Source: an uncultured Oscillospiraceae bacterium
Lineage (GTDB): Bacteria; Bacillota; Clostridia; Oscillospirales; Acutalibacteraceae
Direction: 5' to 3'
NCBI GenBank assembly: GCA_949297075.1
Contig: CASFRX010000069.1
Coordinates: 1-64,000, forward strand
DNA length: 64,000 bases
The position numbers and the translations under genes are program-made. The notes under the pieces are model-generated. The model was not told where the DNA came from and made no database searches. It was given only the letters and a program-made list of their open reading frames with translations. Each line of letters begins with the position of its first letter. Position 1 is the first letter of the stretch. Shown here in pieces: positions 20,890-26,923 of the stretch.

Positions 20890-21471
20890 ATGGAGGTATC
20901 AACGCCGTGCGCAGGTATTGTGCATGGCGTTGTGCAGTGTAAAATGGCAGAATATGCAATAGATACTAATGATATTCCGGCTTTTGTCCCAACTCTTAAA
21001 GCCGGCGACAGAGTGCTTTTGAGCGGCACGGTTTATACGGCTCGTGATGCCGCACATAAGCGAATAGTTGAGCTCATGCGCAGCGGAGGGGAATTGCCCT
21101 TTGATTTGCAGGGCGCGGCAATTTATTATGCAGGGCCTACCCCTGCGCCCCCGGGCTTGCCTATAGGCAGCTGCGGCCCTACCACATCCTCCCGTATGGA
21201 TCCGTATGCACCCTTGCTCTTGGATAAAGGGCTTGCCGCTATGATAGGTAAAGGCCCTCGCAATGCTCAGGTTATTGATGCTATCGTCAGAAACAAGGCG
21301 GTTTACCTCTGTGCTATCGGCGGAGCGGGCGCTCTTGCGGCGCAGTGTATAACAGAGTGTGAAGTTATTGCCTTTGACGATTTGGGATGCGAAAGCGTAA
21401 AACGCCTCACTTTTGATGATTTTCCGCTTATTGTTGGAATTGACTGCAGCGGCAATACTCTGTTTGCTTAA
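20890..21471 (+). CDS. Fumarate hydratase class I, beta subunit-like (orphan)
   Basis: A protein of up to 193 residues matching the C-terminal/beta domain of [4Fe-4S] fumarate hydratases and tartrate dehydratases: KAGDRVLLSGTVYTARDAAHKR, YYAGPTPAPPG, GPTTSSRMD, and KGPRNAQV. It hydrates fumarate to malate with an alpha subunit holding the cluster; no alpha gene is in this window. The start is unclear: ATG 20890 has its GGAGG inside the coding frame, and a later in-frame ATG at 20944 has no good SD. The downstream flank is interrupted by an IS element 24 bases after the stop. Confidence 0.82.
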   Translation: MEVSTPCAGIVHGVVQCKMAEYAIDTNDIPAFVPTLKAGDRVLLSGTVYTARDAAHKRIVELMRSGGELPFDLQGAAIYYAGPTPAPPGLPIGSCGPTTSSRMDPYAPLLLDKGLAAMIGKGPRNAQVIDAIVRNKAVYLCAIGGAGALAAQCITECEVIAFDDLGCESVKRLTFDDFPLIVGIDCSGNTLFA

Positions 21472-21528
21472 AACTGAATAGTACAAATAAAAAAGGGGGC
21501 TGTAAAAAAACAGCCCTAATAAAAAATC

Positions 21529-21570
21529 GACTGCAAGAAATCCGAAAAGGATATGATTGCAGTCTTTTTT
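21529..21570 (+). terminator. Terminator-like hairpin at IS left end
   Basis: GACTGCAA (21529-21536) pairs with TTGCAGTC (21557-21564), with an inner ATCC/GGAT pair, and TTTTTT follows. The structure is kept in the second copy of the element with compensating changes. It would stop outside transcription from reading into the transposase gene. Confidence 0.6.
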
Positions 21571-23155
21571 GTGGTATAATTGCAAATATAACCAACGAGT
21601 ACATTATACACCATATCAATTAAAATTACCACTGGAAATTTCAAAAAAAATAAAAATTTCCGATCCGGTATATACATTCTGTGAGGTTTTTGATAATATT
21701 GATCTAAATAAAAATCTTGCCGTTAAGGAAAGCAGGACAGGTCGTAAAAGAGATGATAGTGAAATCTTGCTGAAAGTAATACTGTTTGCATTTATGGAAT
21801 TTGGCTATACGTCAACAAGAGAAATAGAAAAGCTTTGTAATAATGATATTAGATTTATGTGGCTTTTGCAGGATAACCCTGCACCAAGTCATATGACAAT
21901 GGATAACTTTATGAAGGACTATCTTGCCGACTGTATTGAAGATATTTTAGATGAAATCAATTCATATATCTTTGAAATTGAAAATGTTGATTTATCACAT
22001 ATCTACATAGACGGAACAAAGATAGCGGCTAATGCGAATAAGTATAGCTGGGTATGGAAGAAAAGCAGTCTTAAACAAAAGCAAAATACATTTAACAAAA
22101 TTACTGCTTTGCTTCAAGAAATCAATGCCTCTCTAATATATCAAGATGTTGAATTTGAAATTCGCACAGAATATCCAATAGAGTATATGGAATTGATAAT
22201 TGACAGATATATTAAGCTTTTCGATATTCAACCCGAATGTATTGTCAGAGGCAGAGGACATCACAAAACAGCAGAACAACGAACCTATGACAAGCTTGTT
22301 GAATATACGGAGAAGCTAAAGAAATATGCAGTTCATATTAACATCTGTGGTGACAACAGAAACAGCTATTCTAAAACAGACAATGACGCAACATTTTTCA
22401 GAATGAAAAGAGACTATATGGGTAATGACCAATTGCTGCCGGGATACAACATTCAGCTTGGTGTATGTGATGAATATATTGCAGTGGCAGACGTAAAGCA
22501 ATACGCATCGGATATGGATTGCTTTATTCCGCTTATGGAAAAATTCAAAAATATATATGGCTTCTATCCAAAATATCCTGTTGCAGATGCAGGATATGGT
22601 TCTTTCAATAATTATCTATACTGTGAAGAACACGGTATGGAGAAATATATGAAATTCACAATGTTTGAAAAAGAAAGCAAGGATGAAAAATACCGTGACA
22701 ATCCATACAGAGCAGTGAATTTCCCTATCAATGAAAACGACAAACCTGTTTGTCCAAACGGAAAAGAATTTAACTTCCTTTACACAAGACCTGTAAAGGG
22801 AAACAAATATGGAAGAACGGAAGAGCTTTATCAATGTGAGGACTACACAAATTGCAATCGCAAAGAACAATGCTGTAAAGCCAAAGGCAATAGAATTATC
22901 AGGCTCAATGAAGAATTAACAATCGTTCATCAAGAGGTACTTAGTAATCTCAACAGCACAAAGGGTGCATTACTTCGTATGAACAGAAGCATACAAGCCG
23001 AAGGTGCATTTGGAGCAATCAAATGGAACAAAGCCTATACAAGAGCCAAAAGGAGAGGCTCAAAAGGCATAAATTTAGAAATTTTGATGATTTGCTGTGG
23101 TTTTAATCTGCACAAATACCATTTGAAAAGCCAATCACAAAAACCAGCGGCATAA
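21557..23155 (+). CDS. IS1182 family transposase, start region probably damaged
   Basis: Up to 532 residues of DDE transposase. The N-terminal DUF772-like region (about 50-135) includes the ESRTGRKRDDSEILL stretch; the first catalytic Asp is probably in IYIDGTKIAANANKYSWVW at about 150. The C-terminal part has a Cys-rich patch (CEDYTNCNRKEQCCK) and ends in RGSKGINLEILMICCGFNLHKYH. The frame opens at a TTG inside the left-end hairpin, not a convincing start. The second copy has 12 extra bases that supply GTG AAA AAC before the shared KYNQRVH, suggesting the true start has been lost here. Confidence 0.85.
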   Translation: MQSFLWYNCKYNQRVHYTPYQLKLPLEISKKIKISDPVYTFCEVFDNIDLNKNLAVKESRTGRKRDDSEILLKVILFAFMEFGYTSTREIEKLCNNDIRFMWLLQDNPAPSHMTMDNFMKDYLADCIEDILDEINSYIFEIENVDLSHIYIDGTKIAANANKYSWVWKKSSLKQKQNTFNKITALLQEINASLIYQDVEFEIRTEYPIEYMELIIDRYIKLFDIQPECIVRGRGHHKTAEQRTYDKLVEYTEKLKKYAVHINICGDNRNSYSKTDNDATFFRMKRDYMGNDQLLPGYNIQLGVCDEYIAVADVKQYASDMDCFIPLMEKFKNIYGFYPKYPVADAGYGSFNNYLYCEEHGMEKYMKFTMFEKESKDEKYRDNPYRAVNFPINENDKPVCPNGKEFNFLYTRPVKGNKYGRTEELYQCEDYTNCNRKEQCCKAKGNRIIRLNEELTIVHQEVLSNLNSTKGALLRMNRSIQAEGAFGAIKWNKAYTRAKRRGSKGINLEILMICCGFNLHKYHLKSQSQKPAA

Positions 23156-23335
23156 GCAAAACTAAAAGTTTTCAACATCAAAGGTGTAAAACTCAAAACC
23201 TTTTTGAGTTATGCCCAAATTTTCAACATTTGTCATACTTTTCCACATTTTCAATCAAATACAGGCAAAAAAATCACCGGGACTCACTTTTTCGTGAATC
23301 CCGGATTTTCGTTAGGCCGTTTTTTATACAGCCCC

Positions 23336-23517
23336 TTTACCGTCTTTATCCGCAAAATTAGATATAACGTCTTTCATAATAGAAATCTCTGATTTCCATG
23401 CTTCTCGTGTTGTAGTGAGAGCTTCGCCATGATACCTCTCACAAAGCAAGCCAAATATTGAATTGTCATCAGAGTTTAAGAATGTCAAAAACTGCTGTTA
23501 TATAAACATCGGTTCAT
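23336..23517 (-). pseudogene. 5' remnant of an unknown gene cut by the IS
   Basis: On the minus strand AGGAG at 23525-23529 precedes an ATG at 23517, but that frame stops after ten codons. A different frame (phase shifted by two bases) reads QQFLTFLNSDDNSIFGLLCE and continues through REAWKSEISIMKDVISNF to the IS border, with one TAA near its beginning. This looks like a real coding sequence with a frameshift and a stop, truncated by the IS right end; the rest is not on the other side of the IS. Function unknown. The remainder of 23518-23690 contains nothing I recognise beyond AT-rich sequence. Confidence 0.5.
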
Positions 23518-23690
23518 GAGATATCTCCTTTGATTGAAATAAATAATAAATTCTATATTATCCAAAATTATATTATTCAAATTTCAAATGGGCATATTTA
23601 TGAACAAACATTTTGTTGTACCAATTCAATATTAGCACAGTCTCCATCATTGTTTTTTTTGCTATATAATCTTAACTACGGAAAAAGTTT

Positions 23691-23993
23691 TTAAAAACTT
23701 TCAAGCAAAGCAATAACCGCTTTCTTTTGTGTGTGATTTAGTCTGTTCCAATTATCAAGTAAAATTTTTTGGTCGTTTGTTAAACTAACAGGTTCGTTGT
23801 TATAATTGAAAAATTGAGCCAAGGAAATATTATAGGCACTACAAATTTTTTCAAGGGAGGGGATAGACGGATATATTTCTTTTCTGAACCAGGATGATAT
23901 TGTAGTTTGTGCTATTCCTGATTCCTCTGACAAGCGATATTCACTCCAGCCACGTTCAAGTCGTAGCTGTAAGATGCGTTCTAAGACAGTCAT
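23691..23993 (-). CDS. XRE-family helix-turn-helix regulator
   Basis: A 100-residue DNA-binding protein. Residues 4-60 form a Cro/C1-type HTH (LRLERGWSEYRLSEESGIAQTTISSW with the recognition helix at the end), and the last 35 residues form a helical segment (NDQKILLDNWNRLNHTQKKAV) likely used for dimerisation. SD GAGGTG precedes the ATG. It is divergent from the lipoprotein gene, with an inverted repeat TTTCGTA-7-TACGAAA covering its own -10. It probably controls itself and the lipoprotein/zinc-ribbon genes. Confidence 0.82.
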   Translation of the reverse strand: MTVLERILQLRLERGWSEYRLSEESGIAQTTISSWFRKEIYPSIPSLEKICSAYNISLAQFFNYNNEPVSLTNDQKILLDNWNRLNHTQKKAVIALLESF

Positions 23994-24011
23994 GGTTGTT
24001 ACACCTCTTTC

Positions 24012-24077
24012 TTTCGTAAATTATATACGAAAAAGTGTTGACTTTTAATAATTATAATAGTAATATATAATACGAAA
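24012..24077. promoter_or_regulatory. Divergent promoter region with TACGAAA operator
   Basis: TTTCGTA (24012-24018) and TACGAAA (24026-24032) form a perfect inverted repeat with a 7-base spacer. On the plus strand TTGACT (24038-24043), 17 bases, TAATAT (24061-24066) is a promoter for the lipoprotein gene, and a third TACGAAA half-site lies at 24071-24077 just past its -10. On the minus strand a TATAAT lies inside the inverted repeat and would serve the XRE gene. The arrangement fits a repressor that blocks both promoters. Confidence 0.6.
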
Positions 24078-24123
24078 ATAATTATTAAATATGCTTTGTT
24101 GGAGCATTAGAAAGGTGAACGTT

Positions 24124-25815
24124 ATGAAAAAAGTTTGTATGTTATTTTTGAGTATTTTGTTGGCTGTTTCTATGAGTTCATGTTCGGCTGAACAAAAAGC
24201 AGAAAAGAACGCACTGGAAGTTGTTAAAACTTACATAGAGGCACTCGAAGAATTTGATACTGAGAAGCAACAAGAATGTATGGATCCGAGCCTTACTTCT
24301 TTTTCAGAGGGATTGGTCAATTCAGTTGGAGATTTATTCGGTATCTCTGGAGCCTATGATATGTCTAACGGTGCGGCAGGACTTTTAGGTTCGCTTTCAC
24401 AGCAGGCACTTGATGTGGAAATCGAGTATAATTATAAGAAATTGTTAGAAAGCGACTTGTCTGAAAATAACGGAACTATAACAGTTCAATATGAACTTGT
24501 GGTAAAAAATAATGAAAGTGGCGAAAAAGCTAAACAGAATATTTCCTGGACTTTCTATATGGTCAACAAAGATTCTGAGTGGTATATTCAGCATTATGAT
24601 GATCCCCAGGCGGTTCTCTCAAAAGAGGAGCAAAAAGCTAAGGATGAATATAATTCTGTTGGTACAGTGGTTCAAGGAATACATAATGGTTCAAATTTTT
24701 CAGAAGATTTAGCATGGATAGAGTGTGAAGAAGATTCTGAGAGAAGATATTATTGTGTAGATAAGTCTGGTACTATTGTTTTTGAACTTGAACCTGATTA
24801 TAAGCCTAGAAGTGCTTATAACAGAACTTCAGAAATAGAAGAAAGTTTTTTCAAAAACGGAACGAGTCTTGTGGTCTATAAAGAAAACACCGAGGAAGAA
24901 ACATGGTGTATTATAGATAACACAGGCAAAATTGTTAAACGATTAGTTGAAGGTGACACAGCACTTGAAGCTACAATGGCAGCAGACGGGAATTATATTG
25001 TAACAGGATATTTTGAAAGTATAAACGGAAACGAAAGAAAATACGGTTTGATGAATTCTAAAGGCGAGTATCTTATTCCGCTTTCAGCAGAGATAAGCGA
25101 AATACGATATCGCGGAAGTGATGTCTATTTGGTTAGAGGATATATGGGAGGCATAAAAGAGAGTTTTTATAATGCAAAAGTTAAGAAAACCATTTCTTCA
25201 GCAGATGATTATGATATCGGTGCTGCTATCGGATGTGGGGTAGGCACTTTTACAGAAGGATACGGGATATTTTTAAGTAAGATTGTTGAGGAAGATGTAA
25301 GTTACCAAATTTCCAGTCTTTCAGCGGTAGATGGAAGCACGAGAAAGTTATTTACACCTTTTAATGGTAAAGGTGATTATGAGTACGGCGTTCTTTCAAA
25401 CGGTTTGATTTATGTTGAAGATACTGATTACGGAGCTACAGAGAAAGGATTTTTCGACATTAAGGGAAACCTTATAATTGATTTAAGTCAATATGAAAAT
25501 GTTTATGGTCTGGGAAACTACGGTATGCCGTACTTTATTGATGGATATTGTGCTTTAAAAATAAATGGTTTTTGCTTGTTTATTGATACTAAAGGTAATG
25601 AGATTATTGAGCCTTTTAAAATTAACGGAGAGATGACACTTAGTGACGGTATTCTAAGAACACCGCAGGAGAACGGAGTTGTTTTTTATGATATGCAGGG
25701 TAATAAACTTAGTGGTATAGATGATAGTGCTACGAGTTTCTCTTGTGAACGAGCAAAAATAGAAACGGACGATGGAATTCATTACATTGACAAAACAGGA
25801 AAAGTAATATTTTAA
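24124..25815 (+). CDS. WG-repeat-like lipoprotein
   Basis: A 563-residue secreted lipoprotein. The signal peptide MKKVCMLFLSILLAVSMSSC ends in a lipobox-like site with Cys20. Residues 25-160 form a small alpha-beta domain resembling lumazine-binding or DUF4878-type folds. From about residue 200, five or more repeat units of the pattern aromatic-x-x-Asp-x-x-Gly-x-hydrophobic follow (WCIIDNTGKIV, GLMNSKGEYLI, GFFDIKGNLII, LFIDTKGNEII, HYIDKTGKVIF), like WG/KWG repeats. ATG 24124 with AAAGGTG upstream is preferred over the ATG at 24091. The gene is AT-richer than the housekeeping genes around the island. Function unknown; surface binding is a guess. Confidence 0.7.
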   Translation: MKKVCMLFLSILLAVSMSSCSAEQKAEKNALEVVKTYIEALEEFDTEKQQECMDPSLTSFSEGLVNSVGDLFGISGAYDMSNGAAGLLGSLSQQALDVEIEYNYKKLLESDLSENNGTITVQYELVVKNNESGEKAKQNISWTFYMVNKDSEWYIQHYDDPQAVLSKEEQKAKDEYNSVGTVVQGIHNGSNFSEDLAWIECEEDSERRYYCVDKSGTIVFELEPDYKPRSAYNRTSEIEESFFKNGTSLVVYKENTEEETWCIIDNTGKIVKRLVEGDTALEATMAADGNYIVTGYFESINGNERKYGLMNSKGEYLIPLSAEISEIRYRGSDVYLVRGYMGGIKESFYNAKVKKTISSADDYDIGAAIGCGVGTFTEGYGIFLSKIVEEDVSYQISSLSAVDGSTRKLFTPFNGKGDYEYGVLSNGLIYVEDTDYGATEKGFFDIKGNLIIDLSQYENVYGLGNYGMPYFIDGYCALKINGFCLFIDTKGNEIIEPFKINGEMTLSDGILRTPQENGVVFYDMQGNKLSGIDDSATSFSCERAKIETDDGIHYIDKTGKVIF

Positions 25816-25858
25816 TTAAACGGTCTTTATCTTTTAAAAAATGAGAGGAGTTTTATTT

Positions 25859-26197
25859 ATGTTTTGTCCTAATTGCGGAAAAGAAGTGTCTGCCGACAAC
25901 GCTTTTTGCAGTGGTTGCGGGGGCTCTTTGAAAAATCAGCCGACTCAAACTGCGCACAAAATTGATCAAAGACACTCAGTACCTAAATGTACGTGTTGTG
26001 GATATGTAGGAGAGTGGAAACCTGCACCGATACTCAGACCGTTGGATTATATTTTAGGTATAGTATTTATGTTTTTAGGTATTGCTCCCGGTATTATTTA
26101 TCTTGTGGTTGTAGCTGCCAATCGTTCAAAACCGGAAAACCGTGAAAAAATTTGTCCCAATTGTAATGCCAAAAACTTGTGGACGTTCATTTATTAA
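25859..26197 (+). CDS. Zinc-ribbon membrane protein
   Basis: A 112-residue protein. MFCPNCGKEV with FCSGCGGSL forms an N-terminal zinc ribbon (C3, C6, C17, C20). Two further CxxC-type sites follow (KCTCCGY at about 45, and KICPNCNAKNLW near the C-terminus), so they may form a second ribbon split by a hydrophobic segment (ILGIVFMFLGIAPGIIYLVV, about 65-84). SD GAGAGGAG fixes the ATG at 25859. It follows the lipoprotein gene by 43 bases and is probably co-transcribed. The IS remnant begins 9 bases after its stop. Function unknown. Confidence 0.7.
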   Translation: MFCPNCGKEVSADNAFCSGCGGSLKNQPTQTAHKIDQRHSVPKCTCCGYVGEWKPAPILRPLDYILGIVFMFLGIAPGIIYLVVVAANRSKPENREKICPNCNAKNLWTFIY

Positions 26198-26205
26198 AAG
26201 CAAAA

Positions 26206-26901
26206 GGGGCTGTAAAAAAACAGCCCTAATAAAAAATCGACTGTAAGAAATCCGAAAAGGATATGCTTGCAGTCTTTTTTGTGGTATAATTGAGTTGTGA
26301 AAAACAAATATAACCAACGAGTACATTGTACACCATATCAATTAAAATTACCACTGGAAATTTCAAAAAAAATAAAATTTCCGATCCGGTATATACATTC
26401 TGTGAGGACTGCACAAATTGCAATCACAAAGAACAATGCTGTAAAGCCAAAGGCAATAGAATTATCAGGCTCAACGAAGAATTAACACTCGTTCATCAAG
26501 AGGTACTTAGTAATCTCAACAGCACAAAGGGTGCATTACTTCGTATGAACAGAAGTATACAAGCCGAAGGTGCGTTTGGAGCAATCAAATGGAACAAACC
26601 CTATACAAGAGCCAAAAGAAGAGGCTCAAAAGGCATAAATTTAGAAATTTTGATGATTTGCTGTGGTTTTAATCTGCACAAATACCATTTGAAAAGCCAA
26701 CCACAAAAACGAGCGGCATAAGCAAAACTAAAAAGTTTTCAACATCAAAGGTGTAAAACTCAACACCTTTTTGAGTTATACCCAAATTTTCAACATTTGT
26801 CATACTTTTCCACAATTTCAATCAAATACAGGTAAAAAAATCACCGGGACTCACTTTTTCGTGAATCCCGGATTTTCGTTAGGCCGTTTTTTTACAGCCC
26901 C
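26206..26901 (+). mobile_element. Internally deleted copy of the IS1182-type element
   Basis: A 696-bp element with both ends of the copy at 21496-23335 but lacking about 1155 internal bases. The junction is TGTGAGG at 26401-26407, the same seven bases that occur at both deletion borders in the long copy (21680-21686 and 22835-22841). Left and right terminal repeats and the 5' and 3' hairpins are kept. It could still be moved in trans. It lies between convergent genes; the flanking bases AAAAGCAAAA and TTTTTTGCTTTT are inverted repeats of each other. Confidence 0.88.
26297..26721 (+). pseudogene. Transposase remnant in the deleted IS copy
   Basis: GTG at 26297 opens MKNKYNQRVHCTPYQLKLPL, the apparent original transposase N-terminus, but one missing A in an A-run shifts the frame before the deletion junction. 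The C-terminal 105 residues (CTNCNHKEQCCKAKG to FNLHKYH) are open in another frame, which starts at the ATG at 26326. No active transposase can be made. Confidence 0.85.
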
Positions 26902-26923
26902 TAGCTTTTTTGCTTTTTATGGG

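Follow-up and report, generated by a model that had tools for sequence, protein, structure and literature searches.

Introduction

The insertion sequence IS1272, which belongs to the IS1182 family, inserts by replacing stem-loops, often transcription terminators, without generating a target duplication (PMC5678879, PMC4923244). Insertions of IS1182 elements are enriched between convergent genes (PMC9208149), and the family includes transposons that take the place of terminators and have unrelated genes as cargo (PMC4923244). Here we analyze an AT-rich island bracketed by two IS1182-type elements in the genome of an uncultured Oscillospiraceae bacterium (assembly GCA_949297075.1). The island lies between a fumarase gene (fumC) and a foldase gene within a 64,000-nucleotide stretch, referred to below as the window (contig CASFRX010000069.1, positions 1 to 64,000).

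Results and Discussion

The two IS1182-type elements

The two elements, copy 1 (coordinates 21496-23335) and copy 2 (26206-26901), both lie on the forward strand and share 97-98% identity in their common parts, which confirms the same-orientation pair proposed in the initial annotation. Both have intact ends, GGGGCTGTAAAA...TTTTACAGCCCC, with one additional T-A step at the right end of copy 1. The transposase matches the Pfam model DDE_Tnp_1_6 (3e-30) and covers in full the NCBIfam IS1182 model, the top match of all IS models, with a score of 263.4 bits, just short of its cut-off of 270 (E value 4e-78). As in the IS1182 family, terminal inverted repeats bound an element of 1.5-2 kb, and the relatives that we found measure 1.65-1.9 kb and have the same ends. 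No target duplications were found around copy 1, copy 2 or the whole block.

Copy 1 had been described as full-length and is indeed complete in length, but it lacks 12 bp that include the transposase start codon. This segment, located after the -10 box, is kept in copy 2, in the relatives, and in an IS relic elsewhere in the genome; no start codon is present within 25 nucleotides of the copy 1 -10 box. The description of copy 2 as a deleted copy holds: it is an internal deletion derivative in which transposase residues about 57-427 are gone, and the junction lies at a TGTGAGG direct repeat. Both copies therefore look inactive at present, since copy 1 has no start codon next to its promoter and copy 2 is internally deleted; the island would then be fixed and not a working composite transposon. 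An IS right-end relic in another part of the genome (G000:C58:47593-47721) directly precedes a gene whose product has a putative signal peptide. A promoter-like TTGAAA...TATAAT inside this relic may drive the adjoining gene.

Flank symmetry and target site

If an element replaces a stem-loop in the manner of IS1272, the flanks of a single insertion are expected to be inversely symmetric. The flanks of copy 2 match in this way over 10 nucleotides, AAAAGCAAAA (26196-26205) on the left and TTTTGCTTTT (26908-26917) on the right, and could be the two arms of a stem interrupted between the convergent zinc-ribbon and foldase genes. The flanks of copy 1 match over 4 nucleotides and the outer pair, i.e. 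the left flank of copy 1 and the right flank of copy 2, over 7 AT-rich nucleotides (AAAAAAG / CTTTTTT). Among 756 cross-paired flanks a 10-nucleotide match occurred in 0.13% and a 7-nucleotide match in about 5%; the copy 2 match is AT-rich, its right side is offset by 6 nucleotides, and it may be due to chance. The comparison of 10 with 7 nucleotides favors copy 2 as a separate, later insertion, and if copy 2 did enter a terminator stem, the zinc-ribbon gene already adjoined the foldase gene at that time.

The same symmetry was found among 28 complete related elements: in five of them (L063, L067, L074, L079 and L093) inversely matching flanks of 6-12 nucleotides lie flush with the element, where 0.6 such cases were expected, and the observed total of matched flanks exceeded that of all 500 permutations. 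Stem-loop replacement thus fits several relatives and plausibly copy 2, but not copy 1. At 16 of the 28 relatives the 3' end of a gene lies no more than 150 nucleotides away; the same holds for 3.9% of random positions overall and for 37.5% of random positions that are intergenic.

Inward-facing terminator-like hairpins at the IS ends

The ends of the elements include terminator-like hairpins that face inward. That of the copy 1 left end (21529-21570, forward strand), recognized by direct reading as GACTGCAA...TTGCAGTCTTTTTT, lies just upstream of the transposase -10 box; a simple scan scored the copy 2 version of this hairpin and not that of copy 1. At the right ends, the copy 1 hairpin (23277-23304, reverse strand) consists of an 11-pair stem followed by TGATTTTTTT, and its counterpart in copy 2 (26844-26871, reverse strand) is placed so that it could halt transcripts arriving from the foldase gene. 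The stretches with the hairpin pattern are 21496-21580, 23277-23335, 26206-26300 and 26844-26901 in the window, together with the relatives at L062-L105.

A lax version of the terminator scan, which had a 52% background, was dropped for a strict version with 2%. Of the 28 related elements, 26 had an inward hairpin within 90 nucleotides of the left end and 23 had one equally close to the right end; the rates were 2.1% for interior windows and zero of 107 for host windows. Many of the same hairpins also score in the outward direction (20 on the left and 17 on the right), so some of them may be bidirectional. In an alignment of ten sequences, 6 of 22 pairs have changed on both sides, as in hairpins maintained by compensatory changes. 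The left T-tract adjoins the -10 box and the transposase starts 4-10 nucleotides after that box in most elements, a layout in which the transposase mRNA would apparently be leaderless. The part of the literature that we covered yielded no published description of paired inward terminators in the IS1182 family. IS1182 elements of gut Clostridia may possibly follow a self-insulating design, an idea to which we give serious weight while stopping short of calling it probable: they would insert in place of terminator hairpins of the host and carry inward terminators at their own two ends, the left one abutting the promoter of a leaderless transposase. If so, an insertion restores the termination that it destroys and is nearly invisible to the host, and such terminator-targeting elements could spread at little cost.

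Genes of the island

The three genes that the initial annotation had placed between the two copies were found there: they code for an XRE regulator, divergently transcribed, a lipoprotein with WG repeats and a membrane protein with a zinc ribbon. Their G+C content (0.35-0.40) is lower than that of fumC and the foldase gene (0.45-0.52), which bears out the claim that the middle genes are AT-richer; the AT-rich IS elements themselves also contribute to the local dip. The XRE regulator (23691-23993, reverse strand) is a Cro/CI-type protein of 100 amino acids (Pfam HTH_3, 3.5e-12) transcribed divergently from the lipoprotein gene, and its nearest NCBIfam model is RstR, with 40.9 bits versus a cut-off of 80. 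The lipoprotein gene (24124-25815, forward strand, best start at 24124) codes for a signal peptide with its Cys, a helix plus beta-sheet N-terminal domain that is possibly NTF2-like, and divergent WG repeats. The protein scored 25.2 bits with the WG repeat model PF14903, whose cut-off is 25.6, and is WG-like without being counted as a member. Its single-sequence structure model has a mean pLDDT of 43.5, with low confidence except at residues about 100-160, and is unfit for structure searches. In the zinc-ribbon/transmembrane protein (25859-26197, forward strand, best start at 25859) the second Cys-pair motif is split by a transmembrane segment.

The intergenic region between the divergent genes includes a predicted operator (24012-24078) that consists of a TTTCGTAAATaTATACGAAA-type palindrome, with halves TTTCGTAAAT/ATATACGAAA, and a second ATACGAAAA site 45 bp further on. 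The promoter TTGACT-17-TAATAT (24038-24066) lies inside this region. An operator model with a 6-bp spacer was discarded. With the palindrome and the second ATACGAAAA site on either side of the promoter, the XRE protein probably acts there as the repressor of the operon, and the operon most likely codes for a cell-surface sensor or binding lipoprotein and its membrane partner, switched by the XRE protein. A locus designated L142, from another genus of the family, resembles the window in that each has a divergent XRE promoter with two repeated sites exactly 45 bp apart (24012-24078 in the window and L142:2316-2384), the sequences of the sites being different.

A further feature, absent from the initial annotation, is a gene remnant of about 53 codons (23339-23509, reverse strand) that breaks off where copy 1 ends on its right side and has an in-frame stop near its start. 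It had no family match in Pfam/NCBIfam-type profile searches.

Distribution of the island genes

No orthologue of the WG protein was found in ten congeners or in 398 genomes of the family, where the matches were weak and partial, and searches of GTDB contigs, plasmids, phages and viral contigs returned none. Strong relatives of the zinc-ribbon protein were present in only two further genomes, at L142 in the family sample and at L153 in the order sample. At L142 the zinc-ribbon relative is located downstream of a lipoprotein gene, and a divergent XRE gene codes for a protein 41% identical to that of the window; at L153 two lipoprotein genes precede the relative. IS1182 elements are absent from both loci. 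A search for the three genes together in other genomes, which had been suggested as a check, thus led to the regulator/lipoprotein/zinc-ribbon layout without an IS in another genus, indicating that the gene set is independent of the IS. The set is a rare, IS-independent layout, and its composition and distribution make it likely that the cargo was acquired from elsewhere. The zinc-ribbon homologue at L142:4054-4395 is broken by stop codons and may be a decaying gene. A WG protein of another genome (G309, L043) includes a zinc ribbon at its own N terminus, a link between the two functions.

The fumarase and foldase sides of the island

Nine congeners have both fumC and the foldase gene, and in each of them the two are on separate contigs. 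Among most congeners the 3' neighbors of the foldase gene differ (L021-L027), and they include an APH-type kinase, a HAD hydrolase, a phosphodiesterase and, nearby, a YhcG-type nuclease, i.e. this is a variable slot, which suggests that the region downstream of the foldase gene is an integration hotspot. A stem-loop terminator is found shortly after the foldase stop codon in L021, L022, L023, L025 and L027; in the window an IS end occupies that place.

On the other side, copy 1 connects the end of the fumarase gene to the truncated gene. The other half of this gene was not found to the left of copy 1, pointing to a deletion or rearrangement there. The SipL gene follows fumC in several congeners and is here on another contig (G000:C31:1140-2492), not after position 21471 of the window, which makes the 3' side of fumC a rearrangement point. 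No IS piece was found beside SipL in this genome, and a simple IS-IS exchange at fumC is unsupported. Taken together, the separate contigs and the variable downstream neighbors indicate that neither side of the island is a fixed junction.

Origin of the island

The scenario that we consider probable, if only modestly so, is that a foreign cassette was gained beside the foldase gene and that the IS elements inserted afterwards. A small cassette with a divergent XRE repressor and a lipoprotein/zinc-ribbon operon would have been acquired in the variable slot, and IS1182-type elements would then have inserted around it. Copy 2 would have replaced a terminator stem-loop that separated the zinc-ribbon gene from the convergent foldase gene, bringing its own inward terminator, while copy 1 would sit at a rearranged or deleted junction, where it now links the fumarase gene to the truncated gene. 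With both copies presumably inactive, the island would now be immobile.

The initial annotation had proposed a composite transposon or an IS-mediated gain. A gain is supported by the absence of a WG orthologue and by the AT-rich cargo; the longer flank match of copy 2 speaks against a composite transposon. In such a transposon both IS copies and the cargo would have moved jointly into a terminator between fumC and the foldase gene, as TnSha-type elements do with IS1272. Two same-family copies with the same orientation and common ends do bracket the cargo, the outer flanks match inversely, the loss of the left half of the truncated gene would be accounted for, and the family has precedents. We nevertheless regard this origin as rather unlikely: a match like that of the outer flanks is expected in about 5% of random flank pairs, whereas copy 2 has a longer match of its own; fumC and the foldase gene are adjacent in no congener; no second cargo copy and no relative with fumC beside the foldase gene was found in the genomes searched; and neither copy is predicted to produce an active transposase. 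When the flanks of each copy can be read, a pair of IS copies in the same direction around AT-rich genes is not necessarily a composite transposon.

Less likely still is a native origin of the three genes, with losses elsewhere and IS copies that merely landed alongside. The IS-free layout in another genus of the family would agree with this, but the WG gene is missing from all ten congeners, only two further genomes of the order-level and family samples gave strong zinc-ribbon matches, and the composition of the genes is unlike that of their neighbors. A misjoining of two genome regions at the repeated IS sequence might be suspected in a draft of 69 contigs that places fumC and the foldase gene on one contig, when they lie apart in all congeners having both. 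This we hold to be highly improbable, for the two copies have at most 81 identical nucleotides in a row, a repeat that normal assembly can resolve, and the assembly includes no other long IS copy, the remaining IS matter in the genome being IS-end scraps of about 30-130 bp. A cassette gained first and IS elements inserted later remains our preferred reading, and the locus as a whole is mostly ordinary, a combination of presumably foreign genes with insertion sequences in decay.

Comparison with known systems

The window copies share with the IS1182 family, of which IS1272 is the best-studied member, the terminal inverted repeats and the absence of a target duplication; their transposase matches the family model at a score just under its cut-off, and inversely symmetric flanks are likewise found at several relatives and at copy 2. 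They differ in that both appear to be inactive, and among the full-length relatives found, the nearest (about 75% identical) come from gut Oscillospiraceae-type genomes and not from staphylococci. The IS1272-based transposons TnSha1 and TnSha2 have cargo beside or between IS1182-family copies, as here, and use terminator hairpins as targets, as copy 2 may have done, but for the window island the sequences searched include no second location and no empty site. The regulator resembles RstR/DicA-type XRE repressors in its HTH fold, its divergent position and the palindromic site next to the promoter, but it scores under the NCBIfam cut-off and lacks a phage context. Finally, surface or membrane proteins with WG repeats (PF14903) and zinc ribbons (PF13240) are known from Clostridia, and the products of the operon share with them a weak WG match, a zinc-ribbon match and a lipoprotein signal; compared to known WG-repeat proteins the repeats are very divergent, and no other genome searched has this lipoprotein.
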